Positions 10,502 to 55,307 of a stretch of DNA of 56,272 bases are shown here, one piece after another. Each line of letters starts with the position of its first letter. Position 1 is the stretch's first letter. Location of the stretch: NCBI RefSeq assembly GCF_014836425.1, contig NZ_JACSQW010000011.1, positions 1-56,272 on the forward strand, written 5' to 3'. The notes below the pieces were generated by a model, which made no database searches, had not been told where the DNA came from, and worked only from the letters and a program-made list of their open reading frames with translations. The stretch is from Limosilactobacillus avistercoris (GTDB lineage: Bacteria; Bacillota; Bacilli; Lactobacillales; Lactobacillaceae). A program made the translations under genes and the position numbers.

Positions 10502-10674
10502 TTAGAGTGTGAGCCCGTTAAAGCCTTCCGGTGGCTAACGATTTCTCCACCGAACGGCGTCTTGCCGTCGGAGGTGGAGGTCGTTAGCTCGAGGAAGGCT
10601 AGGGCGAACACATTTTTACTGTGTTGCCTAGAAGAAAATCTAGGAAACTCAGATGAAGCGCAGTAACTGAGTGG
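10502..10674 (+). repeat. Structured repeat, copy A
   Basis: Begins TTAGAGTGTGAGCCC. Nested stems: GCCC (10513-10516) with GGGC (10602-10605); GCCTTCC (10523-10529) with GGAAGGC (10593-10599); GCTAACGA (10534-10541) with TCGTTAGC (10581-10588); CTCCACC (10545-10551) with GGTGGAG (10573-10579); ACGGC with GCCGT at the tip. A tail hairpin (AACACA/TGTGTT) and a TGAAGCGCAGTA box (10654-10665, shared with copy D) follow. It is read on the plus strand, antisense to both neighbours, in a 435-nt gap without genes. Further hairpins to about 10756 (ATCAAC/GTTGAT, GAAATTGAT/ATCAATTTC) may belong to it. Confidence 0.85.
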
Positions 10675-10803
10675 CTTTTGTCATCAACAAGTTGATAGCC
10701 AAAAACCTACTCATCCTTGCGTGGGGTTCACAGACGAAATTGATAAATCAATTTCTAGTTTACTCCAACATTTTGACCATATTGCAATGAAACAACAGAA
10801 AAT

Positions 10804-10842
10804 AAAAAAGTGATTGCCGATTCAACAGCAACCACTTTTTTT
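10804..10842 (-). terminator. prs terminator
   Basis: On the minus strand AAAGTGGTTGC pairs with GCAATCACTTTTTT, directly after the prs stop codon. Confidence 0.85.
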
Positions 10843-10855
10843 CATTTTCAATATA

Positions 10856-11839
10856 TTAAAGTTCAGCACTCTTAAATACTTGCTTGAACAAAGGACTAAC
10901 AGGACGGTTTTCGTTAATCCGCTTAATTGCAGAACCAATAAGTGGGGCAACGGAAACTTGCTTAATCTTATCAATCTGCTTTTCCTTTGGTAATTGAATT
11001 GAGTCAGTCACAACAACTTCCTTAATTGGTGACTTAGATAACCGTTCAATTGCTGGGCCAGAAAGGACCGCATGAGTACATGAAGCATAAACTTCTTTGG
11101 CACCAGCATCAATTAATGCTTGAGCACCAAGGGTAATCGTTCCGGCGGTATCAATCATATCATCAATCATGATACACTTCTTCCCCTTAACATCCCCAAT
11201 AATGTTCATAATTTGGGCAACGTTTGCTCGTGGACGACGCTTATCAATAATCGCAATTGGTGACTTCAAGAATTCAGCCAATGCCCGTGCCCGAGTAACA
11301 CCACCGTGATCAGGTGAAATAACAACGGCATCTTGAGCAACGCCTTCTTTGATAAAGTATTCAGCTAATAATGGTGCTCCCATCAAGTGATCAACAGGGA
11401 TATCAAAGAACCCTTGAATTTGAGCAGCATGTAAGTCCAAAGCGATTACCCGGTCAACGCCAGAGTTTTGTAGCATGTTAGCAACTAACTTAGCAGTGAT
11501 TGGTTCACGACTACGCGCTTTCCGGTCTTGGCGTGCGTAACCATAGTAAGGAATTACCACATTAATGGTATTGGCACTTGCACGACGCAAAGCATCAACC
11601 ATGATCAGCAATTCCATCAAATTATCATTGACCGGTGCTGACGTGGATTGAATAACATAAACATTATCACCACGAACACTTTCTTCAATGTTAATTTGGA
11701 TTTCACCGTCACTAAAACGGTCAACAGACAATTTACCCAATTCAACACCAACATGCTTAGCGATACTTTCGGCAAGCGGCCGGTTTGAATTTAAAGCAAA
11801 AATCTTCAACTTAGGGTCAAAATAATGATTAGTAGTCAT
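10856..11839 (-). CDS. prs: Ribose-phosphate pyrophosphokinase
   Basis: Makes PRPP from ribose 5-phosphate and ATP, the precursor of purines, pyrimidines, NAD, His and Trp. At 327 residues it is of normal length. The flexible loop [16 protein letters not shown], the [11 protein letters not shown] segment and the PRPP loop [12 protein letters not shown] are present. ATG 11839 is preceded by GTGGAGGA at the right spacing and starts MTTNHYF; the longer in-frame start at 11851 is rejected. It follows glmU, as in Bacillus, where glmU and prs are adjacent. Confidence 0.97.
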
Positions 11840-11989
11840 TGCATCCTCCACTGGATTAATTCAAAACTGGGAAGCTGTGACATCAATGCCTACAGCTTCG
11901 GATTAAATAATATTACGTGTGCGGTAAACATTATCATATCAACACTTCAATAATATAAATTTGCCGCATAAAAAGCAAGAGCAGAAATC

Positions 11990-13354
11990 TTACCAAGGCA
12001 ACTTCTTGGCGTAATCTTCCTTGTTAACCTGACGTGCACGCGCAATTGCCATGTCGTATTCTTCAACGTTATTCGTAATTGTTGAGCCAGCTGCAACAAA
12101 GGCATTCGCAGCAAGGTTAACTGGAGCAACCAGGTTACTATTACTACCGATGAAGGCGTGATCACCAACGTTTGTGTGGTGCTTGTTCTTACCGTCATAA
12201 TTAACAAAGACAACTCCACAACCAACGTTAATGTTCTTACCAAGGGTGGCATTACCAATATAAGTTAAGTGACCAACCTTAGTCCCTTCGCCAATAAAGG
12301 CCTTCTTAACCTCACAGAAATTACCAATATGAACATTCTTGCCAATTTCTGCAGCTGGACGAAGGTGACTATTAGGGCCAATATCACTACCGTCATGCAT
12401 TTCGGCTTCTTGAAGCGTAGATGAAGTGATTGTTACCCCATCATGAATTGTTGAATCTTCAATTCGTGAATGAGCACTAATGTAACAGTCACTACCGATC
12501 GTGGTGTTCCCCTTAATCACAACGCCACCCTCAATAACAGTATCTTGACCAATCTTAACGCCATCATCAATGTATGTCGTTTCTGGATCAATCATTGTAA
12601 CACCAGATTTCATTAACTTGGTATTAATCCGCTTACGCATGATCTTATTAGCACGGGCTAGGGCAACGCGATCGTTGACCCCCATTGATTCATCAAAGTC
12701 GGCCATCTTATAAGCAGTAACGATCTCTTGTTCCTTCTTCAAGATTTCAATTACATCAGTAAGGTAGTATTCACCCTGTGCATTATCATTATTAACTTTC
12801 TTTAATGCAGCAAAAAGCTTCTCATTATCAAAGCAATAAACACCGGTGTTAATTTCATGAATTGCCTGTTCCTCAGGAGTGGCATCTTTTTGTTCAACAA
12901 TCCGTTCAACGATCCCAACTTCATTCCGAACAATCCGGCCATAACCCGTTGGATCAGGGGCGACAGAAGTTAAAATCGTTGCAGCAGCATGACGTTGTTC
13001 ATGATATTCAAATAACTTCTTAAAAGTATCAGCGGTAAATAATGGTGTATCACCACTAACCACAACGGTCTCACCATCTTCATTTCCTAAAAGGTCTTTA
13101 GCTTGCATCACCGCATGGCCGGTTCCTAACTGTTCATTTTGCAAAGCAAACTTAGTCCGGTTGCCGATAACTTCCTCAACCCTTTCAGCACCAAAGCCAA
13201 CGATAGTCACAATATTATTAATATCAGCCTTTTCGAGTTGACCAACCACGTGCTCTACCATTGTCTTGCCACATACCTTGTGTAAAACCTTGTATAACTT
13301 TGACCGCATCCGGGTTCCCTTACCGGCTGCCAAAATAATCGCGTTCCGCTTCAT
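11990..13354 (-). CDS. glmU: Bifunctional UDP-GlcNAc pyrophosphorylase / GlcN-1-P acetyltransferase
   Basis: Produces UDP-GlcNAc for peptidoglycan and teichoic acid synthesis. The N-terminal uridyltransferase domain (about 1-230) opens [21 protein letters not shown]. The C-terminal half is a left-handed beta helix of hexapeptide repeats ([42 protein letters not shown]), which carries the acetyltransferase site. The 454-residue length is standard. It is 9 nt downstream of purR in the conserved block. Confidence 0.97.
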
Positions 13355-13363
13355 TTTGCTACC

Positions 13364-14197
13364 TTACTCCTTCTCAAAAACATCTTTAATAAAGCTTCCT
13401 GATCTAGCCTGGATCGTTTTCTTCTCATCGTCTACCGCATTTACCTTAATCAGTGAAGTGCAGTTATCAACCAGTCGCTTACCGGAAACTTCTCCCTCGG
13501 CTAAAACAGTCATTCCAACTAAGTTCGCGTCAAATTCCTTAATCAATGACTTCATCCCGTTAAGGGTTCCGCCACCCTTCATAAAGTCATCAACCACGAC
13601 CACGTTTGCTCCAGCTGAAAGGGTCCGCCGTGATAATTCCATCTTCTTGATTCGTTTTACAGAACCCGAAACGTAATTAACACTAACTGTTGGCCCTTCT
13701 GTAATGTGAGAACTATTCCGCACAATTACAAATGGCTTATTCAGATACATCGCAGCACTTTGGGCAATCGGAATTCCCTTAGTTTCTACTGTCATAATCA
13801 CATCGACATCTTTATCAACGTATTGGGTAGCAATTAACCGACCAACACGACGTAAGATATCAGGCCGACCAATCAAATCTGAAAGGTAAACATAATCCCC
13901 AGGTAATAGCCGGGTATCATCACTTACCGCATCAACAAGATCAGCAATGGCCTTTTCCGCATTTTCCTTTGAATAAAACGGTGTTAATACGGCACCACCG
14001 CTTGCACCAGGAATTGTTTCCAATCGTCCCATTCCCCATGAATGGAAAGTATGACGAATAATACTAAGGTCTTCACTAATTGAAGACTTAGCAGAATCGT
14101 ACCGTTCCCCGAAGAATTTGAGGGAAACAAGGGAACGAGGGTGTTCCATTAAATATCTTGTCATATCGACAAGGCGGTTACTACGTCTAACCTTCAT
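13364..14197 (-). CDS. purR: Purine operon repressor PurR
   Basis: Firmicutes-type PurR, a DNA-binding repressor of purine genes whose effector is PRPP, which relieves DNA binding. The N-terminal winged helix (about residues 1-75, MKVRRSNRLVDMTRYL) is joined to a phosphoribosyltransferase-like domain with PRPP loop VVVVDDFMKGGGT (about 200-212). ATG 14197 lies after GGAGG at 7 nt; the 14 residues upstream in the frame are rejected. It is placed between ispE and glmU, as in Bacillus (ispE-purR-...-glmU-prs), and regulates the pathway that consumes the product of prs nearby. Confidence 0.96.
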   Translation of the reverse strand: MKVRRSNRLVDMTRYLMEHPRSLVSLKFFGERYDSAKSSISEDLSIIRHTFHSWGMGRLETIPGASGGAVLTPFYSKENAEKAIADLVDAVSDDTRLLPGDYVYLSDLIGRPDILRRVGRLIATQYVDKDVDVIMTVETKGIPIAQSAAMYLNKPFVIVRNSSHITEGPTVSVNYVSGSVKRIKKMELSRRTLSAGANVVVVDDFMKGGGTLNGMKSLIKEFDANLVGMTVLAEGEVSGKRLVDNCTSLIKVNAVDDEKKTIQARSGSFIKDVFEKE

Positions 14198-14269
14198 ATC
14201 TAATCCTCCAAAAGTATTAATCGCCTTTGATTTTAACATAAATGTTCGGCTTTTACTTAATATTTATCA

Positions 14270-14308
14270 AAATAACTGGACTTTTCTTCAGCATTAGAAA
14301 AGTCCAGT
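14270..14308 (-). terminator. Hairpin after ispE
   Basis: ACTGGACTTTTC (14275-14286) pairs perfectly with GAAAAGTCCAGT (14297-14308). The U tract beyond is weak (TTATTTT), so termination may be partial. Confidence 0.6.
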
Positions 14309-14316
14309 CAGTGAAA

Positions 14317-15168
14317 TTATAAAAGAGTAACGATATTGACGTTTCTGCAAAAGCCACGGATCCCATTTTGAACTCGCCGTGCTCGTGATTCTGTATGGCA
14401 GATTGCAAAAACCGAAGGACCCGTCCCACTCATCTGGGCAACATCCGCTCCCAACGACAACATCTTATCTTTTAACCGTTTAATTTCTGGATAGTAACGC
14501 ATTGTCAGAGGCTCTAATACATTTCCCATATACTTAGTTGCCTCCTGCCAATCACCATTTTGTAAATTTTGGATTAATTTTTCGTTCTCCAGGTGATTAA
14601 TCTGCGTATAGTCAATCTGCCGAAGCATCTGTGGTGTCGATACACTTATTTGTTGCTTAGCAATAACCACCCAGTAATGAGGTTGCTGGGGCAATAGTTC
14701 GATCTTTTCGCCATGCTCAGTCACGTGTGCTAACTTTCCATAAACACAATATGGAACGTCTGAATCAATCGATAATGATAAACGCGCCAATTCTTCTAGT
14801 GAAAGGCCAAGTTTCCATGCCGAATTAAGGATCCTCAATACTGCAGCGGCGTCCGATGAGCCACCACCTAACCCAGCCGCAACCGGAATCTTTTTCTTAA
14901 TATTGATCGTTAATGCTTCTCGTCTGTGGAATCGATTTCGTAAAATATTAGCTGCTTGAAACGCGAGGTTTCGTTGATCATTTGGAAGAAAGCTACTGTC
15001 TGTATAAACCTTTATATTTCCTGGTTGATCGGAGATTTCGATTGAAACGTAGTCTGCCAAATCAACCGAAACCATTACCATATCCCACTTGGGCATCCCA
15101 TCAAGGTACCGCATTGGTGAATCCAAGCTTAAATTAAGTTTCGCTGGCGCTTTTTCAGTGATCAGCAT
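14317..15168 (-). CDS. ispE: 4-diphosphocytidyl-2-C-methyl-D-erythritol kinase family protein
   Basis: GHMP kinase of 283 residues. The ATP loop PVAAGLGGGSSDAAA and the C-terminal GTGPSVFAI motif are clear. IspE acts in the non-mevalonate isoprenoid pathway, yet this window also encodes HMG-CoA reductase of the mevalonate pathway (22962-24230). Lactobacilli commonly keep an ispE gene beside purR and veg without the rest of that pathway, so the true substrate here is uncertain. ATG 15168 is chosen because GGGAGG lies 8 nt upstream; a GTG at 15177 overlaps that site. Confidence 0.9.
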   Translation of the reverse strand: MLITEKAPAKLNLSLDSPMRYLDGMPKWDMVMVSVDLADYVSIEISDQPGNIKVYTDSSFLPNDQRNLAFQAANILRNRFHRREALTINIKKKIPVAAGLGGGSSDAAAVLRILNSAWKLGLSLEELARLSLSIDSDVPYCVYGKLAHVTEHGEKIELLPQQPHYWVVIAKQQISVSTPQMLRQIDYTQINHLENEKLIQNLQNGDWQEATKYMGNVLEPLTMRYYPEIKRLKDKMLSLGADVAQMSGTGPSVFAICHTESRARRVQNGIRGFCRNVNIVTLL

Positions 15169-15257
15169 CCAAAACACCTCCCAGTTTAATCAAATAGTTA
15201 TCTTGATTATAGCAGAGGAGGCCTTAGTAAAGAAGTTATGTAGAATGTCTTCTAAAA

Positions 15258-15300
15258 ATAAAAAGGATTATGAAAAAAATGAATATTTTTCATAATCCTC
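15258..15300 (-). terminator. veg terminator
   Basis: On the minus strand GAGGATTATGAAAAA pairs with TTTTTTCATAATCC, followed by TTTTTATTTTT, straight after the veg stop. Confidence 0.85.
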
Positions 15301-15308
15301 TTACTATA

Positions 15309-15560
15309 TTACGCTTGTGCTTCTTCATCTTCGAAATCGATCGCGATATTTTGTGTTAAGAGATCAGTATAACTGTAAGTGATCCGATTAATCTCTCCTT
15401 GTCCTTCATTAACATGAACAACAAAGATTGCTGGATACGTCTTACTAAGTACTCCGCGGTGCTTAGCAACCCGTTTACGGCCTGCTTGAGCAGTTACTAA
15501 AACTCGTTGACCAACACGCCCTTCGAGTTCTTGCTTAATCTCTAAAATACTTTTAGCCAC
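15309..15560 (-). CDS. veg: Veg family protein
   Basis: Small (83 residues) conserved Firmicutes protein. In B. subtilis Veg is linked to biofilm gene control, but its molecular action is not settled. Recognised by VAKSILEIKQELEGRVGQRVLVTAQAGRKR and by its place between rsmA and ispE. The start is GTG 15560, 5 nt after GAGGTGA; an upstream in-frame GTG at 15569 overlaps the ribosome site. Confidence 0.93.
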   Translation of the reverse strand: MAKSILEIKQELEGRVGQRVLVTAQAGRKRVAKHRGVLSKTYPAIFVVHVNEGQGEINRITYSYTDLLTQNIAIDFEDEEAQA

Positions 15561-15647
15561 ACATCTCACCTCACAGGCTGAACTATACGCTCATTTAGCT
15601 TAAAAGTCAAAATTTTATCACAACTATATTAATAATTCAATCGTATT

Positions 15648-16541
15648 TTAAATTAAATTTTCTTGATGAAGTGCATTTAATAGTTCAATAAATTGGCTTA
15701 AAGTTAGCTTTTCTGGCCTAATTTGTGGTGAGAGCTCAAGTTGTTCTAAAACTTTTGTCATTTTTTCTTTTGTTTCGGCATCTTTACCAATTACACTTTG
15801 TAAGTTATTCCACAGACTCTTCCGCCGGTGAGCAAAGCATCCCCGGATAAAGCCCATCAATTTTTGCTTATCAAATGGTTTTACCGTTAGTGGTTGTTGA
15901 CGTTGCTTAAGAACCACAATCGCAGAATCAACATTCGGTGCTGGAATAAACGAATGTCGCGAAACATTAAAGGCAATTTCTGCATCCATTTGGTATTCAA
16001 TTGCTAATGTTAATGCTCCATACTGTTTTGTCCCCGACTTGGCGGTTAATCGCTGGGCTACTTCCTTTTGCATCATTACTGTAATTGATGTCCATTCAAC
16101 GGGACTAGCTAGGAGCCCCATTAAAATTGGGCTAGTAATGTAATACGGCAAGTTAGCAACCACCTTAATCGGCTTAGTCGGATCAGTAAATTGTTGTTGA
16201 ATCAATTCAGGTAAGTTTGCCTTCAAAATATCTTGATTGATCACCGTTACGTTATCATGATCAGCTAACGTCTTTTCCAAGACCGGAATTAAATCCTGAT
16301 CAATTTCTACCGCAACAACCTGACTAGCAGCATTAGCCAGTTGTTCGGTTAAGGCACCAATTCCGGGACCAATCTCAATTACGTTATCTTCCCTTGTTAC
16401 TTCTGCAGCATCAACAATTCGGTGAAGGATCTCTGGGTCGGTCAAGAAATTCTGACCAAACCCCTTCTTAGCGTGAATCCCATACTCATTCAAAATTGAA
16501 CAGGTCGCTTTGCGGTTACCAATTTGTGTTGACTCACTCAT
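15648..16541 (-). CDS. rsmA: 16S rRNA dimethyladenosine transferase
   Basis: Dimethylates two adjacent adenines (A1518/A1519 in E. coli numbering) in 16S rRNA helix 45 during 30S maturation; its loss gives kasugamycin resistance. The SAM motif [14 protein letters not shown] (about 51-64) and catalytic [13 protein letters not shown] are present; 297 residues is usual. It overlaps the rnmV stop by 4 nt and has a GGAGG ribosome site. Confidence 0.97.
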
Positions 16542-17098
16542 TTTGTTTCCTCCTGGTCTAATTGTTGAACTGCATTTTCAAAGTCATCTCGACGAATTTG
16601 AAACATATTTAACCGTTTCAAAAGTTGCTTTCCGTTTCCATAGCCAATTCCAAGAAGCTGCCCGAGACGTTCTCGGCGGTAACGTGAATTTGTTCTTCCG
16701 GTTAATCCGGCCGCCTTTAAATCAGCACTGGTTATTTCCGCGTTTTCTGTTGTTCCTTGGGTATAAAGCTTTTCTAAGGCGTTCCGAATCACTTCTGGCG
16801 TTGCGTGCTCAACACCAAGGCTACCTTTAAATTCCGGAACCCCCTGATCACGACGAATGAACGCGTGCTTAACTCCTGGAATAGCATTACTAATCATTTT
16901 GCGGATCCGTTCCCCATTAAAATCGGGGTCAGTAAACACAATCAGCCCCCGAGTTGCTTGAAGCTTTTTTAATCGGGCAATATCTACTTCTGATAATGCC
17001 GAACCATTCGTCTCATAAGTATCAGCATTAACTGCCTTTAAGATTTGTTTGGTATCGTCTTTTCCTTCAACGACGATTACTTCTTTAATCTTTTTCAT
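16538..17098 (-). CDS. rnmV: Ribonuclease M5
   Basis: Toprim nuclease that matures both ends of 5S rRNA precursors in Firmicutes. The Toprim acid motif VVEGKDD (about 9-15) and the later [12 protein letters not shown] hold the metal-binding residues. At 186 residues the length is normal. The first 14 nt overlap the end of tatD and the last 4 overlap rsmA, so translation is probably coupled. Confidence 0.96.
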
Positions 17099-17903: not shown

Positions 17904-17915
17904 TAGTAAGTCCGA

Positions 17916-19979
<2,064 letters not shown>

Positions 19980-25361: not shown

Positions 25362-25543
25362 TTCGTAGGTAACTGAGTCGAGATCTGCTCACCAGGGGCT
25401 TGCTAGAGCTAGCGGTTCTAGGCAACTGAGTAGAAATGTGCTCAGCCGATCCTTCCTCGAGCTAACGACCTCCACCTCCGACGACGAAACGTCGTTCGGT
25501 GGAGAAATCGTTAGCCACCGGAAGGTTTTTGCGGCTTCGCACT

Positions 25544-25546
<3 letters not shown>
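25362..25546 (-). repeat. Structured repeat, copy B (composite), in the trpS 3' UTR
   Basis: On the minus strand the copy begins with the TAG of trpS (TTAGAGTGCGAAGCCG). Stems: AGCCG/CGGCT, CCTTCC/GGAAGG, GCTAACGA/TCGTTAGC, CTCCACC/GGTGGAG and a perfect ACGACG/CGTCGT tip. A CTGAG/CTCAG tail hairpin follows. It is then joined to what looks like the 3' arm and tail of a second unit (CGCTAGCTCTAGCAAG, then GAGCAGATCTCGACTCAG), which matches copy C rather than the rest of copy B. Nothing else is coded in 25174-25543 apart from the terminator. Confidence 0.85.
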
Positions 25547-26581
<1,035 letters not shown>

Positions 26582-32830: not shown

Positions 32831-33271
32831 TTAGCCTTGTTCAAATTCAAATTCTGGGAACCAAATCTTAATTTCCTTAGTAGCGGATGCTGGTTCATCA
32901 GAAGTGTGGACAATATTACGAAGGTTACCATCTGGCCATTCACGACCATAGTCACCACGAATAGTTCCCCATTCGGCTTCAACAGGGTTAGTTGCACCAG
33001 CCATGTTGTGGATTGCCTTAATAACGTTAGTTCCTGAAACAACAATCCCAACAATTGGTCCTTCAGTCATGTATTCCAGCAATTCTGGGAAGAATGGCTT
33101 ATCAACCTTATCGGCATAGTGTTGGCGAAGTAATTCTTCTGTTGGTTGAATCATCTTTAGTGCTTCGATCTTGTAGCCCTTGCGTTCGATCCGGGTAATA
33201 ATTTCCCCGATATGACGGGTTTTAACACCATCGGGCTTTACTAAAACTAATGTGTATTCGTCTTTAACCAT
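32831..33271 (-). CDS. ndk: Nucleoside diphosphate kinase
   Basis: Equalises nucleoside triphosphate pools by ping-pong phosphotransfer. The active His is in NLRNIVHTSDEPASA (near residue 120). The N-terminal TLVLVKPDGV and GDYGREWPDG segments fit the family, though the latter is a few residues longer than the common GDF...GRN loop. Length 146. The ribosome site is GAGGAG. A cre-like palindrome (TGAAAGCGCTTTTTCA, around 33335-33350) overlaps the probable promoter. Confidence 0.95.
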   Translation of the reverse strand: MVKDEYTLVLVKPDGVKTRHIGEIITRIERKGYKIEALKMIQPTEELLRQHYADKVDKPFFPELLEYMTEGPIVGIVVSGTNVIKAIHNMAGATNPVEAEWGTIRGDYGREWPDGNLRNIVHTSDEPASATKEIKIWFPEFEFEQG

Positions 33272-44314: not shown

Positions 44315-44340
44315 TTTAGTTATAAAGAATTTATTCGTTT

Positions 44341-45729: not shown

Positions 45730-45869
45730 TGACAGCGATCTCAGGCAGCATTGTCGAGATCTGCTCGCCAGGAACTTGCTAGAGCTAGCGACCTCCTTCC
45801 TAGGCGCAAGACGCCTCCGTCAGGAGAAATCGCTAGCTTTCCGCAAGTTCTCTGCTGGCTCGCACTCTA
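45730..45869 (-). repeat. Structured repeat, copy C, between permease and epimerase
   Basis: On the minus strand it opens with the permease TAG (TAGAGTGCGAGCCAG). Its stems pair although their sequences differ from the other copies: GCCAG/CTGGC, GAACTTGC/GCAAGTTC, GCTAGCGA/TCGCTAGC, CTCCT/AGGAG and AGGCG/CGCCT around a TCTTG-type loop. The tail GAGCAGATCTCGAC is shared with copies B and D. It fills most of the 180-nt gap between two genes that look functionally linked. Confidence 0.85.
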
Positions 45870-47291
45870 TTTTTTGTTCAAGTATGAATGCTTCATGCCA
45901 TAGGCAAAATAGATGATTAAACCAAGGACGAACCAACCACCGGCGTAGATTTTTGCTTGATAATCCAGTCCAAGGAAGACCAGCAATGATGCAAGAAAAC
46001 CAAGAGCTGGAAGAACAGGATAAAGTGGCACTTTGAATGCTGGGTTATTGATGTCCTTACCTTCACGACGACGCAGTGGGTAAATCCCGATTGATACGAA
46101 CATGAATGCGATCAAAGTCCCAGCTGAAATCAATTGTGAAAGGAAAGCAAATGGGAAGAATGCCCCAATCAAAATTCCACCAATGGTCAAAGTCCACAAT
46201 GCCCGGTTTGGTCGGTTGCTTTCATCTAGCTTACCAAGCCACTTCGGTAACATCCCGTCACGACCAAATGAGTAGATCAACCGTGAACCAGCCATGCTCA
46301 TCCCAATTAATGCGGTAAACATACCAACAACAGCAATAGTCTGAACCACCGTTGCAACACCAGCATGGCCAGCAGCACGAAGCGCAAGCCCAACTGGTTC
46401 AGCACTGTTAGCGTACTTTCCGTATGGGAGCATCCCAACAAGGACCAAACTAACTGCCACAAACAAGATTACGGCAATCGCAAGTGAACCGAGGATTCCT
46501 CGTGGCATCGTCTTTTGTGGGTTAATTGCTTCCGCAGAGTTAGCCGCGATTGAATCAAAACCAATATACGATAGGAAGATCATTGAAACACCAGCGTAGA
46601 TTCCTTGCCAACCACCGAAAGGACCATTTGCCGTTTCGTGATATTTAGGAATAAACGGTACATAATTGGTAGCATGAAGAGCAGTCAAACCAACTACAAT
46701 AAACAGGAGAACGGCGAAAACCTTCAGGACAACCAAAACATTTTCAACCCGTGCTGCCCGAGAAACCCCACGGGAAATCAGAGCAGCAACCAAGGCGATC
46801 ACAACAACTGAAACTAAGTCGACGATTCCGCCATCAGTTCCAAACGCGTTTGACAGTGATGCCGGGAGCTTCAACCCCATTGGTGCAATCAGTGCCCGGA
46901 AGTTGGCCGAAAGTCCAGACCCAACAAAGGCTAGCGCGATAAAATATTCTGCAAGAAGCGCCCAACCAGAGATCCAACCGAAGAATTCACCAAAAACAAC
47001 GTTAATCCACGAATATGCTGAACCTGCAAACGGCATCGCTGCAGACATTTCCGCATAGGCAAATGCAACTAACCCGGCAACCACCGCCGCAAGTAAAAAT
47101 GAAATTGCAACCGATGGTCCGGTGTGCATTGCCGCTACTTCACCAGGAAGAGTGAAAATAGAGGCGGAGACAATTGTACCGACCCCAAGTGCTAAAAAGT
47201 CTCGCACCTTCAATGAACGAACCAAATGGCCGTCTTTATTAGCATAGACACGCGGGTCTTCTTTTCGGGTAATTGTTTTCCAAAAACTCAT
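45867..47291 (-). CDS. APC-family amino acid permease
   Basis: 474 residues with about 12 membrane segments. The first segment (FLALGVGTIVSASIFTLPGEVA) carries the glycine-rich substrate-contact motif of the APC superfamily, and YAEMSAAMPFAGSAYSW is another family signature. It is related to YfnA/CAT-type transporters; substrate unproven, but the downstream epimerase suggests branched-chain or other neutral amino acids. ATG 47291 follows AAGGAGG. It ends in TAG, the first triplet of repeat copy C. It has its own promoter (47348-47376). Confidence 0.92.
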   Translation of the reverse strand: MSFWKTITRKEDPRVYANKDGHLVRSLKVRDFLALGVGTIVSASIFTLPGEVAAMHTGPSVAISFLLAAVVAGLVAFAYAEMSAAMPFAGSAYSWINVVFGEFFGWISGWALLAEYFIALAFVGSGLSANFRALIAPMGLKLPASLSNAFGTDGGIVDLVSVVVIALVAALISRGVSRAARVENVLVVLKVFAVLLFIVVGLTALHATNYVPFIPKYHETANGPFGGWQGIYAGVSMIFLSYIGFDSIAANSAEAINPQKTMPRGILGSLAIAVILFVAVSLVLVGMLPYGKYANSAEPVGLALRAAGHAGVATVVQTIAVVGMFTALIGMSMAGSRLIYSFGRDGMLPKWLGKLDESNRPNRALWTLTIGGILIGAFFPFAFLSQLISAGTLIAFMFVSIGIYPLRRREGKDINNPAFKVPLYPVLPALGFLASLLVFLGLDYQAKIYAGGWFVLGLIIYFAYGMKHSYLNKK

Positions 47292-47347
47292 AACCATTCC
47301 TCCTTCTCTATTAAATTTAGATTAGAATAATAAGAAAACATTAACTT

Positions 47348-47746: not shown

Positions 47747-47846
47747 ATAACTAGAAGTCATTTGCCAATATTACAATATTTTAGTGAAACCACTAAAGCG
47801 CTAGATCTTCTAGTTATAACCAAGCAATAATAATATTTATTGCTTG
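47747..47846. other. Structured non-coding region upstream of nth
   Basis: ATAACTAGAAG (47747-47757) pairs with CTTCTAGTTAT (47807-47817) and encloses TTAGTG/CACTAA. A second hairpin, CAAGCAATAA/TTATTGCTTG (47821-47846), follows at once. No gene is seen in 47292-48036; the remainder is AT-rich apart from the small RNA unit and promoters. Confidence 0.55.
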
Positions 47847-48036
47847 TTCACTATTAGTTATGCATTCTTATGGGATAGATGTCAAATGAAAGCGCAACAT
47901 TTTTTGAAATATTTATTGTTAAAATGCTGCAATCCCGCGCCGCTGCATATATATCAATCGATAGATTAATATAACTAATCATTCTAAAAAGTAATTATTT
48001 GTTTTATAATAAGACAAATTATAAGGAGATGTCTCT

Positions 48037-48678: not shown

Positions 48679-48681
48679 GAT

Positions 48682-49539
48682 TTAACCCCACCATAATTTA
48701 ACTAATGCTTGGGTTCCATCATTACCATAACCAGCATTAACTAGCTTCTCGTATAACCGAGTTGCTTCCCTTGTCATCGGTCCCTTGATTCCCATCTTTT
48801 GTGCTTCTTCGAGTGCAATTCGTAAGTCTTTGAGAAAGTGTTTAGCAAAGAAGCCTGGAGTGTAATCATCCTTTAAAATTCGTGGACCATAAGTGCCGAG
48901 GCTAAAGTTCTCGGCTGCACCCGATTGAAGTGTTTTCATTACCTCATGAAGATCAAGTTGAGCAGCCTTCGCATAAACCAACGCCTCACTCATCCCTAAC
49001 ATTGTTCCCGCAATCATAATTTGATTAGCCATCTTAGCATTTTGGCCGCTTCCTGCATCACCAAAATACTGGACAGAGGAAGAGAATTGCTCGAATAATG
49101 GTTGTAATGTGTTAAGATCATTTTTTTGACCACCAACCATTACCGTAAGTGTCCCCTTCTTCGCACCAATATCACCACCGGAAACTGGTGTATCTAAGAC
49201 ATGGACTCCTTGTTTAGTCCCTTCTTTGGCAATTTGCTTTGCTAATGAAGGTTTACTAGTTGTCATATCAACAAGGTACTGGCCTGCATGAGCATTAGCT
49301 AAAATCCCGTTCTCGCCAAAATATAATTCTTCAACGTCTGTTGGGAAGCCAACCATTGTAAAAACAACATCTGATTGCCTTGTTAGCTCAGCTGGCGTAT
49401 CACACCACTTTGCACCATTTTCCATCACCGCTGCTGCATGAGCTTTTGTTCGGTTATATACTGTTACTTCCTGGTGTTTAAGAAGGTTATTAATAATTCC
49501 GGTCCCCATTACACCAGTACCAATAAAACCAATTTTCAT
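48682..49539 (-). CDS. NAD(P)-dependent beta-hydroxyacid dehydrogenase
   Basis: 285 residues. The Rossmann motif is GFIGTGVMGTGI (4-15), the substrate signature DTPVSGGDIGAKKGTLTVMVGG is at about 120-141, and the catalytic Lys is in GSGQNAKMANQI. This matches the 3-hydroxyisobutyrate / tartronate semialdehyde / glyoxylate reductase family; the exact substrate is open. The ribosome site is AAGGAG. It is convergent with nth (3 bp between stops) and downstream of an organophosphate transporter gene, from which a hairpin separates it. Confidence 0.9.
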   Translation of the reverse strand: MKIGFIGTGVMGTGIINNLLKHQEVTVYNRTKAHAAAVMENGAKWCDTPAELTRQSDVVFTMVGFPTDVEELYFGENGILANAHAGQYLVDMTTSKPSLAKQIAKEGTKQGVHVLDTPVSGGDIGAKKGTLTVMVGGQKNDLNTLQPLFEQFSSSVQYFGDAGSGQNAKMANQIMIAGTMLGMSEALVYAKAAQLDLHEVMKTLQSGAAENFSLGTYGPRILKDDYTPGFFAKHFLKDLRIALEEAQKMGIKGPMTREATRLYEKLVNAGYGNDGTQALVKLWWG

Positions 49540-49626
49540 CGTATCACTCCTTAAAATATTACTTATCTAATATTATACAAATAAGTTCTCAACGTTTGTA
49601 ATTCAAATATTGAGGACTTATTTTAT

Positions 49627-50952
49627 TTATTTGGATGTAATATGTCGTTCTTTTAACGAGAAGATATGTAATGCAATAGCACATCCTAGGCAAAGAACCG
49701 TTGCAACAATCAAAAGAACTAAACCAGCATTCCAGCCATAATGATCTACTGCAACCCCAAGAAGACTGGTTCCAAGCGTTGAGCCAAGGACATAACTCAT
49801 AAATCCGCGAAGCCCAACGGTTGAACCAACAGCAAATGGCGGAACAACTTCCATCGTTTGAACAGAATCAAGAAATTGAGGAATATAAACTAGGCATCCG
49901 GCCAACGCTGCATAAATAGTAACCGCCGTTACCGACTTACTATTCCAGTAGCCAAAAATACAAAAGACAATTAAAACGAGGGCAATCATTGCTGGTGGCA
50001 TCCGGTAACTCTTAAACAACTTATCAGAAATAATTCCTGCTAGTAATGTTGACGGAATTGCAGCCCATTCGAAGAAGGCAAAAGCAACCATCATTTGACC
50101 ATGGGTGAACCCTTTTGCTTGAATCAAGAAGATTGGTAACCAGGTTAAAATTCCAAAACGAATCATATAAACAAATGTATCCATAAATGAAACAAGCCAA
50201 GCACCAGGATTATTAAAGACATACTTTGTTAAAATTTGCCAAGAACTTAAATCATGATAATCTATATTCCCTTGCTCTTTTTTAGTTTCGTCTAGCGGTG
50301 GCAATCCCTCTTCTTCTGGACGACCCTTAACAAAAACCAGTACGATTAATGCAACTGCAATAGCAACTAATGCCGGGAAAATATAGATTGCAAATCGCCA
50401 ATGACTAGCACCAACAATCCCCAACATGAAACCAGCAAGTGGTGAAACTAATCCCCCACCAAAGTTATGTGAAGTATTCCAAATCGATGTTACAAATCCC
50501 CGTTGTTTTTTACTAAACCAGGTTGAAAGAATAATAAAGGATGGCCCAACTCCCATCCCCTGGAATAGCCCCAATAAAATTAAAATAATAGCTAATGACC
50601 ACAGACTAAAGCCAAAAAATGCTAAACACATACTCAACAGGGCACAGATAATTAATCCAGTAGCCATAAAACGTTTTGGGTTAGCCTTATCCGACCATGC
50701 ACTCATAACACCTTTACCCAAACCATAAGCAATCAGCAAGCAACTAGATAACATCCCAATTTGTCCTTTAGAAAGATCTAGGGATGCCTTTAGCTGTGGC
50801 GTTGATAATGTAAAATTATTCCGCACAATATAAAAAGCAGCATAGCCAATAAAAACTCCAAATAGCGACATCCACTTATACCTCTCAAATAAGGTGTGAG
50901 CTTTCTTAGGAGGCACTTGTGCTTTTTGCCGCGGTTTTAAAAAACTTAACAT
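49627..50952 (-). CDS. MFS organophosphate:phosphate antiporter-type transporter
   Basis: 441 residues, about 12 membrane helices in two halves. The start (KYMSLFGVFIGYAAFYIVRNNF-like) and GLGKGVMSAWSDKANPKRFMA resemble the OPA subfamily (GlpT, UhpT, PgtP), whose members swap a sugar or glycerol phosphate for inorganic phosphate. ATG 50952 lies 9 nt after AGGAG. The TATAAT of its promoter (51020-51015) is followed by a cre-like TGTAAGCGCTGTA (51009-50997), suggesting CcpA control. Confidence 0.87.
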   Translation of the reverse strand: MLSFLKPRQKAQVPPKKAHTLFERYKWMSLFGVFIGYAAFYIVRNNFTLSTPQLKASLDLSKGQIGMLSSCLLIAYGLGKGVMSAWSDKANPKRFMATGLIICALLSMCLAFFGFSLWSLAIILILLGLFQGMGVGPSFIILSTWFSKKQRGFVTSIWNTSHNFGGGLVSPLAGFMLGIVGASHWRFAIYIFPALVAIAVALIVLVFVKGRPEEEGLPPLDETKKEQGNIDYHDLSSWQILTKYVFNNPGAWLVSFMDTFVYMIRFGILTWLPIFLIQAKGFTHGQMMVAFAFFEWAAIPSTLLAGIISDKLFKSYRMPPAMIALVLIVFCIFGYWNSKSVTAVTIYAALAGCLVYIPQFLDSVQTMEVVPPFAVGSTVGLRGFMSYVLGSTLGTSLLGVAVDHYGWNAGLVLLIVATVLCLGCAIALHIFSLKERHITSK

Positions 50953-51035
50953 AATTACCATCTCCTACATTTTTCGTAAACTTTCTCCCCATCAATACAG
51001 CGCTTACATAGCGAATTATACACTAAAATGACATT

Positions 51036-51089
51036 AAAAAAACGATAACTTGACTAAAACTAATAATTTTAATCACGTTACCGTTTTTT
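51036..51089. terminator. Long bidirectional terminator
   Basis: An A-rich arm at 51036-51059 pairs, with a few mismatches, with 51067-51089; the outer part is AAAAAACG/CGTTTTTT. It lies at the end of the zinc-ribbon gene and before the transporter promoter. Confidence 0.75.
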
Positions 51090-51104
51090 AGATATTACTC
51101 GTAC

Positions 51105-52013
51105 TTATTCGTGAGCAATCCCAACTTTTTGAGCCATTTGTTGAACATTCTTTGCTTGCTTATGACTATTCAAGTATTTAATCAAATCTTGCTGTGAGAC
51201 AGTCTCAACTGGATTATAGATATCTCCTGTATGTGGTGCATTTGGCGTACCAAATTCGTAAATATTTACACTACCATCCTGGTTGATCGTATAGGCTGAA
51301 TAAACAACCTCCTTATTACTATCCTTACTGTTAAAGGCAACATAAACCGTGCCACTTCCCTTTGCGGATAAGTAATTTACAATGTTTGGTTCTGTAGTTT
51401 CCTTAATCAGGATACCATTATTCGAATTATCAACAACATTCTTCCATTTTGAAACATTCTTTTGAGCAGCATAACTAGCAACTGCAGCCGCAAATTCATT
51501 TGGCTTCATGTTGGCCTTTAATTCTTCTCCACTACTCTTCTTTGTAGCATTTGCTTTACTCTTTTTAGTTGCTTTTGAAGATAAGGATTTAGCTGCCTGC
51601 TTCTTTATACTCTTCTTGGATTGGGAAGATTTAGTCGAACTCTTCTTACTCTCAACCTTCTTTGATTGTGAAGAAGACTTCTTTGATTCTGATGCAGAAC
51701 TCTCACTCGAATTATTTGCAGCCGCATCACTACTTGTCGAAGATTCAGCAATGGTTTTTGTAGTCTGTTGAATATTTTGTTGGGCCTCAGTTTGTTCCTG
51801 GTGGTTATTAAAAATATAGCTTCCACCAGCAATAATTGCCAAAGCAGCAACAATCACCATTTCATTTTTATGGCGAATCTTACTCTTAGCCTGCTTTTGT
51901 TGCCGTTGATCATAGAAAGAACTCATTTCGCCGCGACTAAAATCATATCCACAAGAAGGACAAATTCGATCCTCTTGTGGGACATTTTTCCTACACCATG
52001 GGCACTTTTTCAT
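51105..52013 (-). CDS. Zinc-ribbon, single-pass membrane protein
   Basis: 302 residues of unknown function. The N-terminus (MKKCPWCRKNVP, then ICPSCGYDF) is a four-Cys zinc ribbon. A hydrophobic helix follows (MVIVAALAIIAGGSYIF, about 51-67). Next is a Ser/Lys-rich low-complexity linker of about 100 residues, likely to span the cell wall, and then a C-terminal domain (about 175-302, FAAAVASYAAQKN, VYVAFNSKDSNKEVVYSAYTI). The layout suggests a cytosolic ribbon and an external domain. A weak kinship with lactobacillar DUF4767-like surface proteins is possible. Confidence 0.82.
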   Translation of the reverse strand: MKKCPWCRKNVPQEDRICPSCGYDFSRGEMSSFYDQRQQKQAKSKIRHKNEMVIVAALAIIAGGSYIFNNHQEQTEAQQNIQQTTKTIAESSTSSDAAANNSSESSASESKKSSSQSKKVESKKSSTKSSQSKKSIKKQAAKSLSSKATKKSKANATKKSSGEELKANMKPNEFAAAVASYAAQKNVSKWKNVVDNSNNGILIKETTEPNIVNYLSAKGSGTVYVAFNSKDSNKEVVYSAYTINQDGSVNIYEFGTPNAPHTGDIYNPVETVSQQDLIKYLNSHKQAKNVQQMAQKVGIAHE

Positions 52014-52096
52014 TCAATATCCCCCAATCATAAGTTACTTCATGAATCACATTATAACCCCAAATGCAAAGAAAATGAATTTTTTTGTAACTAAAA

Positions 52097-52963
52097 TCAC
52101 TTCTCGTTCAATAATTCTTCTTTTGCTGAATCTAATTTAGCCGCTTCTTCTGGAGATAATTTTGGATAAGCTAACGGTAACTTTTCAATTTCCTTGGTTA
52201 GAATATCTGAAACAATTAATCGTGAATACCACTTATCATCTGCAGGAACAACGTACCACGGGTTCTTCTTGGTTGCGGTCGCATTAATTGCCTTTTCATA
52301 TGCCTTTTGGTACTGATCCCAGTATTGACGTTCACGAATATCAGATGAAGAGAACTTCCAGTGCTTTTTGGGAAGGTTAATTCGCCGCAAAAAGCGCTTT
52401 TTTTGCTCTCCCTTTGAAATATGAAGGAAAAACTTAAAGATCACAAAGCCGTTTCGTGAAAGGTACCTTTCGTAATCACGGATATCCTGGTAACGTTCCT
52501 TAAAGAAATGACTGTCAACATCACTCAAAGAATCAATTCCTGGCAAATTGGCATTTAAAATAATTTCTGGATGAACACGAGAAACGAGGACGTCCTCATA
52601 GTATGACCGATTAAAGACACCGATTTCTCCCCTGGACGGCAATTCCTTATTAATCCGCCAAAGGTAATCATGACGGAGCTCTGTCGATGTCGGTTGCTTG
52701 AAATTAGCAACCTTAAAGCCAATTGGATCGACACCGGAGAAAATATGGGCGATCATACTATCTTTACCAGCCGCATCCAATGCTTGAAAGACAACTAAGA
52801 TCCCATATTTATGCCGCGCGTACATCATCTTTTGTGCATGGCGAATATGATAAAGATTTTCATCAATCTGTTTCTTAATTTTCTCTAATTCATCAGCGCT
52901 GTCTTTAACTTTAGTTGGCGCCTTTTTAATATCAAAATCATCACCTGTGAACTTATAATCCAT
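52097..52963 (-). CDS. Polyphosphate kinase 2 family protein
   Basis: 288 residues. The P-loop is FQALDAAGKDSMI, the Walker B/lid motif is VFNRSYYEDVLVSRVHPE, and the lid basic stretch is KKRFLRRINLP. PPK2 enzymes use polyphosphate to phosphorylate nucleoside mono- or diphosphates, or run in reverse. ATG 52963 follows TGGAGG; the seven upstream residues overlap this site. A Ppx/GppA protein in the same window could act on the same polymer. Confidence 0.9.
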   Translation of the reverse strand: MDYKFTGDDFDIKKAPTKVKDSADELEKIKKQIDENLYHIRHAQKMMYARHKYGILVVFQALDAAGKDSMIAHIFSGVDPIGFKVANFKQPTSTELRHDYLWRINKELPSRGEIGVFNRSYYEDVLVSRVHPEIILNANLPGIDSLSDVDSHFFKERYQDIRDYERYLSRNGFVIFKFFLHISKGEQKKRFLRRINLPKKHWKFSSSDIRERQYWDQYQKAYEKAINATATKKNPWYVVPADDKWYSRLIVSDILTKEIEKLPLAYPKLSPEEAAKLDSAKEELLNEK

Positions 52964-53054
52964 TCTTTTGGCCTCCAGATTCAATTATTACCTTCATTCT
53001 AGCACTGTTATTACAATCATTACTGACATTTAACTACATATGCCAGCCTATACA

Positions 53055-53099
53055 AATAGGACTCCAAAGCTCGATAAAACCGAACTCTGAAGTCCTATT
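53055..53099 (-). terminator. Terminator after the SemiSWEET gene
   Basis: AATAGGACT (53055-53063) pairs with AGTCCTATT (53091-53099), with an additional GAACTC/GAGCTT-type inner match. It lacks a long U run on the minus strand. Confidence 0.55.
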
Positions 53100-53168
53100 A
53101 CTTGTGGGGACGTGAAAGTAAAATCACGTTCCCTTGTCGAATTAATATGTGAAGTTATTTGACCTATT

Positions 53169-53435
53169 TTACCAAGGGAAACAAGTCAAGAATGTTGCAA
53201 AACTAAAGAAGATTCCTGGGAAATTGGCCCAGAACACTGGCCAGTCACGGTTCTCCTTAAAGAATGCATAGATACTCCAAAGAGTACAGTTGATACCCGC
53301 AACAAACGGTTGAAGCGGTGCACCATAATTTCCATGCAAGTTATTGTAAATCTGTGCAATGTAAGATACATACATTAAAATGGCAATTATACTGGCAATC
53401 CGTCCTAACCAGTTGATAAACTTCGATTCTTTCAT
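53169..53435 (-). CDS. SemiSWEET-type sugar transporter
   Basis: 88 residues with three membrane helices (about 10-28, 42-60 and 68-86), the size of one SWEET/PQ-loop half. SYIAQIYNNLHGNYGAPLQPFVAGIN corresponds to the family's helix 1 end and helix 2. SemiSWEETs work as dimers and move sugars down gradients. The ribosome site is weak (GAGG 12 nt upstream). Neighbouring sugar genes are not in the same operon. Confidence 0.8.
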   Translation of the reverse strand: MKESKFINWLGRIASIIAILMYVSYIAQIYNNLHGNYGAPLQPFVAGINCTLWSIYAFFKENRDWPVFWANFPGIFFSFATFLTCFPW

Positions 53436-53592
53436 TCTCTCTCGTTCCTCTTTTTATAAAATAAATTTTCTATATCTAATCAATGAAAGCTCAAATTTGG
53501 AAAGACATGCTTGTCCACGCCAAATGGTGAAAAAGCCTCGGAAAAAGATTTGAAATAAGATGTAGAAAATACGCTTACCCTAACAACATAAC

Positions 53593-54612
53593 TTAGGCAT
53601 CTTCGCCGGCAACCTTAACAATTGCCTTTGAAATATTACCTAACTTACCACTAACAAAATCTTCAACGTGAGCGAAGTCCAAAACATTAGAAATTAATGG
53701 TAATGGATCAACGTCACCGGATTGAAGTAAGGCAATTGAGTCTTCGAAAGTGTAAGGGTTGATGAAGGTTCCTTGAATCGTTAATTGCTTTTGGTAAACC
53801 TTGTAAGTATTTACCTTAAATTCTGAATCAGGGTTACCAACACCAAACATTAATACTTGACCACCACGGCGAGCAGCTTCAACGGCTTGTTCCTGGGTCT
53901 TTGGTAAACCAACAGCTTCAACAACAATGTCGTATGAATCCTGCTTTACTTCTTCTGGGTGAGTCATGTTATTAATGGTCTTAAAACCGAAGTGCTTCCG
54001 GTTGTTTTCAAGCTTTTCGTCAACGGTTCCGGCAAGAGTAACTTCACGAACACCGCGAGCCTTCAAGATTTGAGCAATTAGTTGACCTTCAAAGCCATCA
54101 CCAATAATCAATGCGTTTTGGTATGGGTGAGTAGTCAGCAAGTCAACAGCGTGCATTGCACATGAAATTGGTTCAATTACGGCTGCAGCTTCAAGTGAAA
54201 CATTGTCAGGAACATGATAAACAACTTCTTCTGGAGCAGTGAAGTATTCTTCAAAGCCACCGTCACGGGTAACACCAACAGCATCAAGGTGTTCACAAAG
54301 TTCTGGACGGGATGTTCGGCAATAGAAACACTTATGACAATAGATGTTTGGATCGACGCTAACCCGATCACCAACTTTAAAGTCTTCAACTTCACTACCA
54401 ACAGCAGCAACTACACCAGAGTTTTCGTGTCCTAATACAATTGGTGGAACAGCATCAGCTGAACCAGGAAGGCCATTATACAAAGCCTTATCGGTTCCAC
54501 AAATACCAGCCCAGGCAGTATGAACTAAAACTTCATTAGGCTTAACTTCTGGCTTCTTGTAGTTGTCATCAATTTCTAACTTTTTCTTACCAGTCATTAC
54601 TAAAGCTTTCAT
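53593..54612 (-). CDS. Zinc-dependent medium-chain alcohol/polyol dehydrogenase
   Basis: 339 residues. The catalytic zinc site is GICGTD (Cys) and GHENSG (His-Glu); four Cys in CHKCFYCRTSRPELC bind structural zinc. The Rossmann motif is GDGFEGQL, giving GxGxxG. It resembles sorbitol, threonine or butanediol dehydrogenases; substrate not decided. Together with the VOC protein and ROK kinase it may form one transcription unit, though repeat copy D intervenes after the kinase. Confidence 0.9.
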   Translation of the reverse strand: MKALVMTGKKKLEIDDNYKKPEVKPNEVLVHTAWAGICGTDKALYNGLPGSADAVPPIVLGHENSGVVAAVGSEVEDFKVGDRVSVDPNIYCHKCFYCRTSRPELCEHLDAVGVTRDGGFEEYFTAPEEVVYHVPDNVSLEAAAVIEPISCAMHAVDLLTTHPYQNALIIGDGFEGQLIAQILKARGVREVTLAGTVDEKLENNRKHFGFKTINNMTHPEEVKQDSYDIVVEAVGLPKTQEQAVEAARRGGQVLMFGVGNPDSEFKVNTYKVYQKQLTIQGTFINPYTFEDSIALLQSGDVDPLPLISNVLDFAHVEDFVSGKLGNISKAIVKVAGEDA

Positions 54613-54683
54613 CAGATATTCCTCCTACACTAACAAAGTGATTAGGGTCGATCTGAACTAAGGGATAAGACCTTTAGTGGGGA

Positions 54684-55094
54684 TTAATCCTTAACAACTT
54701 CACAAAATTCAATGGTTTCATCGTTTGGGCCAACAATGTTAAAGAACTTAATTCCATGCTTCCAGAAATCAAGGTGTTGAACTTCGTCTTCCTTAACATC
54801 GAATCCTTCTTCTTTAGCAGCCTTAAATGCACCATCTGCGTCTTCAACGTTTAATGAGATATGGTTAATTGCGCCAGTCTTGTGAACAGCACCATCACTG
54901 TCCCAAATTTCCAACATCAAGTGACCAACCTTCATGAATACCACTTGGTGTCCTTGGTCATCAGTATCAAATTGACCTTGCTTCTTGAAACCTAACTTTT
55001 CCCAGAAAGCAATTGTCTTCTTCAAGTCATCAGTTGGGATCCCAACGTGGGCCAAATCGTCATAGTAACCTGCTAAGCTCTTGTTAAATGCCAT
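54684..55094 (-). CDS. VOC family (lactoylglutathione lyase-like) protein
   Basis: 136 residues with two VOC modules: LAHVGIPTDDLKKTIAFWEKLGF and INHISLNVEDADGAFKAAKEEGF. His, Glu (LMLEIWD), His and Glu (ETIEFCE) sit where the family's four metal ligands stand. It may be an epimerase, isomerase or glyoxalase. ATG 55094 follows a near-perfect AAAGGAGGTGA. Confidence 0.87.
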   Translation of the reverse strand: MAFNKSLAGYYDDLAHVGIPTDDLKKTIAFWEKLGFKKQGQFDTDDQGHQVVFMKVGHLMLEIWDSDGAVHKTGAINHISLNVEDADGAFKAAKEEGFDVKEDEVQHLDFWKHGIKFFNIVGPNDETIEFCEVVKD

Positions 55095-55150
55095 AAGTCT
55101 CACCTCCTTTAAATGATTATTTTTTAGTTTATTTAGTTTAGTAAGTTATT

Positions 55151-55307
55151 CGCTACTGCGCTTCACCAGAATTTCCTACTGCAACTGAGTCAAGATCTGT
55201 TCGCCCTAACTTTCCTCAAGCTAACGACCTCCACCTCCGACGACAAGACGCCGTTCGGTGGAGAAATCGTTAGCCACCGGAAAGTTTTAACGGGCTCACA
55301 CTTTCTA
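55151..55307 (-). repeat. Structured repeat, copy D, in the ROK kinase 3' UTR
   Basis: The minus-strand copy begins with the kinase TAG (TTAGAAAGTGTGAGCCC). Stems: GCCC/GGGC (55295-55292 with 55206-55203), AACTTTCC/GGAAAGTT, GCTAACGA/TCGTTAGC, CTCCACC/GGTGGAG and CGGCG/CGTCG, the last with one G-U pair. The tail holds AACAGATCTTGACTCAG and the TGAAGCGCAGTA box seen in copy A. Confidence 0.88.

Follow-up and report, generated by a model that had tools for sequence, protein, structure and literature searches.

The window analysed here, a stretch of 56,272 nt from a Limosilactobacillus avistercoris contig (NZ_JACSQW010000011.1) belonging to a genome of 1.80 Mb in 56 contigs (G000), harbours four copies (A to D) of a structured repeat, three of them at the 3' ends of genes: that for tryptophan--tRNA ligase (trpS), an amino-acid-permease-like gene and a fructokinase gene. 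These repeats are members of a large dispersed family of ~130-nt non-coding hairpin elements in Lactobacillaceae, and the elements mostly sit in sense right at gene stop codons. A preliminary description of the window had recognised the copies and their paired stems; the link to stop codons, the mobility and the occurrence in other genera had escaped it. The features are given below; matches refer to a covariance model (R1) built from 58 Limosilactobacillus copies (alignment A3).

10504..10613, + strand: copy A, full hairpin, type 1 body (R1 match 10504-10638)
10614..10632, + strand: tail of copy A, TTTTACTGTGTTGCCTAGA (approximate boundary)
10655..10770, + strand: array 3' of copy A that contains a further small hairpin module (GGTTCACAGACGAAAT..), approximate boundaries drawn by eye; the same module in loci L005, L021 and L023
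25367..25416 (about), - strand: 5'-truncated half-unit behind copy B (3' arm and tail, type 2 body; repeat D1)
25417..25432, - strand: tail of copy B (approximate boundary)
25433..25545, - strand: copy B, full hairpin, type 1 body (R1 match and fold)
25544..25546, - strand: stop codon TAG of trpS (25544-26569), its AG being the first two bases of copy B
45734..45756, - strand: tail of copy C (approximate boundary)
45757..45868, - strand: copy C, full hairpin, type 2 body (R1 match and fold)
45867..45869, - strand: amino-acid-permease-like gene (45867-47297), TAG stop codon that copy C completes
55170..55192, - strand: tail of copy D (approximate boundary)
55193..55304, - strand: copy D, full hairpin, type 1 body (R1 match and fold)
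55305..55307, - strand: fructokinase gene (55305-56183), TAG stop codon directly ahead of copy D

All four copies lie where the preliminary description had placed them (A on the + strand; B, C and D on the - strand), and the stems that it listed are exact in sequence. Once put in a common orientation, the copies align from AGAGTG to the tail. The tail proposed as shared, AGATCTYGACTCAG, is absent from copy A, which shows ACATTTTTACTGTG, and from the full copy B, which shows ACATTTCTACTCAG; at B it is part of the extra half-unit, and copy C has AGATCTCGACAATG. Compared with dinucleotide shuffles, the hairpins of A, B, C and D (112-113 nt) reach z-scores of -7.3, -8.5, -5.5 and -7.0, respectively, with 0/200 shuffles equalling each of them, and their predicted folding energies range from -56 to -64 kcal/mol. 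The 5' box alone is weak evidence: AGAGTGTGAGC (≤1 mismatch) occurs three times in the window, and 3/100 shuffles reach three.

The description of a four-copy family holds for the copies themselves but not for the size of the family, which is far larger: R1 has 46 matches in G000, and a blastn search of the same genome with copy B finds 29 places at E ≤ 0.1, pieces included. Across the genus, 10 of 50 genomes are carriers, the others having 62 (G003), 48 (G064), 24 (G042), 13 (G021), 13 (G041), 11 (G004), 9 (G014), one (G005) and one (G057) matches. A pattern scan of named genomes gave at least 103 stretches; among the 80 listed, 79 belong to Limosilactobacillus and one to an uncultured Lactobacillus, and the Limosilactobacillus species among the matches listed include urinaemulieris, portuensis, vaginalis, fastidiosus, frumenti and merdavium. 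The preliminary description had proposed building a covariance model and searching related genomes with it, and this search places the family in seven genera besides Limosilactobacillus. At least 26 of 301 genomes of the family Lactobacillaceae match, at least 22 of them outside the genus (a lower bound, with 11 candidates scored per genome), and 13 of the latter, searched more closely, gave 5-39 matches each (E ≤ 0.05). In an order-wide search of 246 genomes (family members included), only two match, both from Lactobacillaceae; because 13 candidates were scored per genome, absence elsewhere in the order holds only at that sensitivity.

Each element is laid out as a 5' box (AGAGTGYGA), an asymmetric hairpin of ~110 nt, with arms free to vary provided that pairing is kept, and a tail (RCACGTTTYRRCTATGTNGCA). 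In the hairpin, GTGY/RCAC forms the basal helix, a GA/GA internal loop is frequent, and a 5'-side bulge and more helices follow up to the apical loop. Its bodies include type 1 (A, B and D), type 2 (C), one whose arm is CTTCGCCC and a long one starting GCCGTGACGG, while the arms found outside the genus are very different in sequence with pairing nearly throughout. The first complete copy is followed by 5'-truncated half-units and sometimes by nested or tandem copies.

Selection on the fold, as claimed in the preliminary description, is strongly supported by two-sided changes in two alignments. In A3, 96.3% of 1,739 cells are paired and 21 of 30 pairs show two-sided changes, compared to 81.9% and 13.7 pairs in shuffles (0/500 as high) and to 28-47% paired with slid partners. 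Alignment A4 (67 matches from eight genera), which was fitted to R1 and is hence biased towards it, is 95.0% paired, with two-sided changes at 29 of 30 pairs, slid partners at 24-45% and 0/500 shuffles equal. The accompanying proposal that the fold acts as RNA or as a cruciform can be narrowed, as mismatch asymmetry together with sense orientation favours the sense single strand (RNA or single-stranded DNA, ssDNA) and disfavours a duplex cruciform. For this comparison of G·U with A·C, in which pairing was called in a strand-neutral manner, isolated mismatches flanked by paired neighbours were counted, and the 89 elements outside the genus hold 73 G·U (G·T) versus 10 A·C. Since a G·T on one strand corresponds to an A·C on the other, such an excess argues for the single-stranded form of the sense strand; it fits RNA and ssDNA alike. 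Apart from these regular copies, two chimeras (L064:2400-2535 and L075:4258-4393) combine 5' and 3' arms from different body types and leave part of the stem unpaired, which, judged from their sequences, is evidence of recombination between copies.

The position of the elements was expressed as an offset, namely the end of the nearest in-frame stop codon measured against the G of GAGTG, with +1 denoting a stop codon made of T and the element's own AG (T|AG). Among the best-scoring 28 of the 46 R1 matches in G000, to which all position counts for this genome refer, 24 start in sense within -12 to +1 of an in-frame stop (11 at +1 and 13 at -12 to 0). The 110 Limosilactobacillus copies collected by regular expression, a set in which orthologous sites recur and which holds two double starts (dropped later), divide into 41 at +1, 37 at -7 to +8, 16 elsewhere and 16 without a stop in range. 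Outside the genus, 24/89 copies lie at +1 and 33 more have a stop within -12 to +40. When copies with a stop in range are counted per independent upstream gene, +1 is found in 24/47 clusters in Limosilactobacillus and 21/52 in the other genera. As background, in the window and 103 genus loci +1 falls at 714/375,862 non-coding positions (0.19%) and at 637/29,990 T^A positions (2.1%). Locus L239 was left out of later counts, and L218, a duplicate of L299, was left out of the gene-cluster, orientation, mismatch and junction counts. As to orientation, out of 197 copies, 134 lie at a sense stop and 35 farther downstream in sense (169 in sense altogether), while one is antisense with a stop at its 3' end and 27 are placed otherwise. 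Away from stops, 21/31 Limosilactobacillus copies have a T before AGAGTG and an A-rich flank. A T^A target was considered as the full cause of the stop-codon peak and was rejected, as it accounts for part of the Limosilactobacillus junctions but not for the peak.

Comparison of orthologous loci shows turnover of the elements. At trpS, 30 loci were fetched from 49 matching genomes; six have an element at the stop or ≤6 nt from it, with bodies of type 1 (G000, G042), the long type (G003) and type 2 (G004, G064 and, in shrunken form, G021), whereas the remaining 24 lack the element and stop at the same codon. For the fructokinase gene ahead of copy D (30 loci fetched of 45 matching genomes), four loci carry an element with four different bodies, a look-alike (L190) being excluded from the count. 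In the syntenic stretch, G004 and G021 lack an element at site C, and G042 and G064 retain remnants of a collapsed one. At site A no element is present in G064 and G004; in G003 the place is taken by a chimera, its 3' arm identical to that of copy A and its 5' part of another type. Furthermore, where the nucleoside-diphosphate kinase gene of the window (ending at 32831) closes with GGC-TAA, its counterpart in G064 has GGC-T|AGAGTG. Empty sites and different bodies at one site thus argue that the elements are mobile or replaceable, and the compared sequences indicate that elements arrive, get replaced and decay at fixed sites. No target duplication is evident at the filled/empty pairs, where the 3' flank is too diverged to align. 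The single-base peak can stem from stop-targeted insertion, or from a series of replacements in which the spacer is eroded to the point where the AG must close the frame. Erosion fits somewhat better: the offsets extend to one side (from +1 through 0 down to about -6), and few frames read into the element (+8, +22 to +36).

With regard to function, the account that we favour, and to which we give an even chance of being correct, is that the element serves as a 3' untranslated region (3' UTR) or intercistronic RNA hairpin met by terminating ribosomes, affecting termination and the life of the upstream message; parasitism comes next. Transcription would make the element the beginning of the 3' UTR or, in operons, intercistronic RNA. 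With the basal helix only ~two bases behind the stop, and in view of the general footprint of the ribosome, a terminating ribosome would have to meet this helix, and at UAG it would meet or melt it. The hairpin could thereby modulate termination or recycling as well as decay of the upstream mRNA, in the manner reported for stop-proximal REP elements. Spread would be that of a non-autonomous element passing through a single-stranded intermediate of the sense strand, and those insertions or spacer-eroding replacements would survive in which the element's AG completes the stop (T|AG), giving the single-nucleotide peak. An intrinsic terminator was rejected as the role of the hairpin, with 0/108 elements having five T's in a row ≤12 nt after it. 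The next feature after 69 stop-adjacent sites is a terminator-like site in 38, a same-strand gene start in 16 and neither in 15; as a terminator or gene start follows in 54/69, the element should usually be transcribed.

Several observations weigh against the RNA-hairpin account. At 443 stops without an element, a terminator-like site comes next in 155, a gene start in 208 and neither in 80, so that element sites have a terminator ahead more often and a gene start less often than these controls, which renders the argument for transcription indirect. Four of the 28 best-scoring copies in G000 are not stop-proximal (one lies at +36 of a 61-codon chance frame, two lie farther off, one of these being a second tandem copy, and copy A has none). 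More widely, the 27 otherwise placed copies among the 197, copy A included, are not downstream of a same-strand gene. Inside the genus, isolated mismatches amount to 8 G·U versus 5 A·C in 101 elements, which is not significant, and the p-value for the mismatch test (6e-13) is too small, as related copies are not independent. G-T pairs are, moreover, tolerated in ssDNA hairpins as well, and the persistence of chimeras with mismatched arms implies that pairing is not essential at every locus. Candidate movers are also missing from several carrier genomes: Y1_Tnp (PF01797) has no match in G000, G003, G021 and G064 (46, 62, 13 and 48 copies), and reverse transcriptase (PF00078, RVT_1) is absent in G000, G003, G042 and G004, although carriers G021 and G064 have it. 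A mover in trans of the IS200/IS605 or reverse-transcriptase kind, group II introns and retrons included, is therefore not supported in the genome of the window, which has neither Y1_Tnp nor RVT_1.

Read as a purely parasitic ssDNA element, moved in trans by a hairpin-recognising transposase (IS200/IS605 or REP/RAYT style), the family would owe its stop adjacency to selection, that is, to what remains after other insertions or promoter-facing orientations are removed. This explanation is a tentative one that we consider possible: it fits the dispersed, nested and tandem copies, the empty and filled sites, the sense-strand hairpin with its G-T tolerance outside the genus, the T before AGAGTG in an A-rich flank (21/31 Limosilactobacillus non-stop sites), the copies facing starts of divergent genes and the presence of Y1_Tnp in carriers G042 (8 matches), G004 (1) and G014 (2). 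The same domain is lacking from the copy-rich G000, G003, G021 and G064 and present in many copy-free genomes of the genus; furthermore, random tolerated insertions should scatter intergenically, in contrast to 11/28 at one exact base versus 2.1% of T^A sites. A host-encoded cis-regulatory RNA selected at particular genes (e.g. a 3'-UTR stability element or sensor) would account for the strong covariation and for six upstream gene families, trpS included, that recur in Limosilactobacillus and other genera, where ~1.4 are expected if 1,700 genes (an assumed number) are equally likely, with three of the six only 46-51% identical and possibly paralogs. We judge it unlikely in view of the element's presence at only 6/30 trpS and 4/30 fructokinase loci, the different bodies at one site and the mixed hosts (tryptophan--tRNA ligase, fructokinase, an amino-acid-permease-like gene and, in G064, nucleoside-diphosphate kinase). 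Highly improbable is a duplex-DNA cruciform or protein-binding palindrome related to the nucleoid or to replication; the long palindromes, the strand-neutral Watson-Crick pairs (4,119 and 3,924 in 101 and 89 elements) and the nearly equal G-U and A-C mismatches inside the genus (8:5) agree with it, but the 73:10 asymmetry outside the genus and the orientation to genes are unexpected if both strands matter equally. Very unlikely, too, is an insertion coupled to translation termination, by which the element or its RNA would be joined at the stops of translated mRNAs (e.g. at ends made in the A site of the ribosome) and then be fixed in DNA, with the stop codon restored by the AG at its front. 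To our knowledge, such an element, if real, would be the first bacterial mobile element known to read the genetic code in choosing its site.

In agreement with the preliminary description, which recognised no named family, Rfam 15 gives no match at the gathering score (in the window, only a tRNA), and copy C has only four sub-threshold matches to Rfam at E ≤ 10. The possibility, raised there, that the copies are fragments of a known insertion sequence (IS) or miniature inverted-repeat transposable element (MITE) was checked and no parent IS or MITE was found, the host's IS ends not being surveyed; plasmids and phages (blastn) and viral contigs (pattern) likewise gave no known-element match. 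Among established systems, the palindromic elements of Rickettsia lie inside open reading frames, and the host frames survive, whereas the Lactobacillaceae elements end the frame. The attC sites of integrons resemble the family in being single-strand hairpins with variable arms placed directly behind stop codons, but differ in their core boxes (RYYYAAC / GTTRRRY), which by eye are not seen in the A3 ends or the tail consensus; the hosts looked at here, furthermore, are ordinary chromosomal genes and not cassettes. We know of no small dispersed bacterial palindrome that is bound to the stop codon with single-base precision, in many genes and in several genera, and at the same time turns over in sequence.

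REP and BOX repeats are the closest analogues. REP and REP-RAYT systems are dispersed extragenic palindromes with a share ≤15 nt from stops (PMC12306157, PMC3733652), and placement near gene 3' ends, in some cases ≤15 nt from the stop, is found in the present family as well. REP elements ≤15 nt from the stop are reported to stall ribosomes and lower translation, and the E. coli REPs counted as stop-proximal number 446/4,072, or 260/496 in an earlier study cited there (PMC12306157); here, 24/28 (best-scoring of 46) are stop-proximal, and in 11 of these, two bases belong to element and stop codon alike. REPs are 20-40 bp long and tagged GTAG or CGTC, in contrast to the present ~130 nt with ends AGAGTGYGA / RCACGTTTYRRC (RCACGTTT); GTAG occurs in only part of the Limosilactobacillus tails, and, unlike in REP/RAYT systems, no Y1/RAYT-type transposase is present in G000. 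BOX, RUP and SPRITE repeats of streptococci are similarly structured, dispersed and apparently non-autonomous, with BOX being modular with tandem sub-units; they are judged probably parasitic and are over-represented between convergent genes (PMC3049150). Compared by description only, BOX follows the order boxA-boxB(n)-boxC (PMC3049150), while the present elements have a single complete hairpin closest to the gene, followed by 3' half-units, and contact with the stop. The family may be REP-like by function and BOX-like by modular habit; it fails the REP features of size, tag and, in G000, transposase. PMC3733652 also names the Rickettsia palindromic elements, and PMC2267715 tabulates stem-loop clusters in Lactobacillus johnsonii. 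Apparently, the family is undescribed in the literature searched, to the extent that its sources are available, a statement made without comparison with the L. johnsonii clusters of PMC2267715.

Small dispersed palindromes are common in bacteria, and the distinctive point here is the single-base coupling to the stop along with sequence turnover. If the hairpin acts on termination or decay, the elements provide a natural series for testing how stop-adjacent RNA structure affects the ribosomes of Gram-positive bacteria; if their position stems from movement, the route of transposition would be new to science. Many intergenic spacers of lactobacilli also gain a name.

A number of minor observations accompany these results. 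Copy A has no same-strand stop codon alongside, and its 5' end faces the start of a divergent gene (9746-10441). Out of the 27 copies that are not downstream of a same-strand gene, 17 (copy A included) have an opposite-strand reading frame ending ≤150 nt from the element's 5' end, and six outside the genus adjoin a ribosome-binding-site-like motif (loose regular expression). In L266-L269 (G106) and L287 (G346), just a few bases separate the element's 5' end from such a motif of a divergent gene; these 5' ends look as if halted at the border of a coding unit. At L300:864-2658 (G317 C189), two family members flank genes for an IS607 transposase and for TnpB, an arrangement taken as coincidence. 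In L239 the element is located at 298, with IS607 as its neighbour.

The element of L217 matches four Lactobacillaceae plasmids over 29% of its length; in the two of these plasmids that were examined, a divergent transporter gene starts 14 nt from the match and no R1 element is found at E ≤ 1, making such matches distant or broken relatives at best, and they were not counted. Plasmid loci L322 and L323 (from Lactiplantibacillus plantarum and Lentilactobacillus parabuchneri) show, from about 1509, a GTGAGCGGAGTAAAGCGGTTAGAAGCTGGAGCCTAAG-like arm upstream of the divergent transporter gene; L322 has a second, diverged GTGAGCGGAGTAAAGCGGTTAGAAGCTGGAGCCTAAG-like arm. As R1 matches neither locus, these may be remnants or a distant branch. 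Behind the stop of the ortholog of the fructokinase gene in G007, the look-alike L190 reads TAG, then GGAGTGCGAC, a short hairpin and GTCGCAC; found in a genome without any R1 match, it is perhaps a further branch of the family. Lastly, a second small hairpin module (GGTTCACAGACGAAATTGATGAATCAATTTCTGGTTCACTCC and relatives) is nested in either orientation in element tails (the window at about 10655-10770, L005, L021 and L023) or in hairpin apical loops (L028, L034, L040 and L106), and looks like another mobile repeat family.

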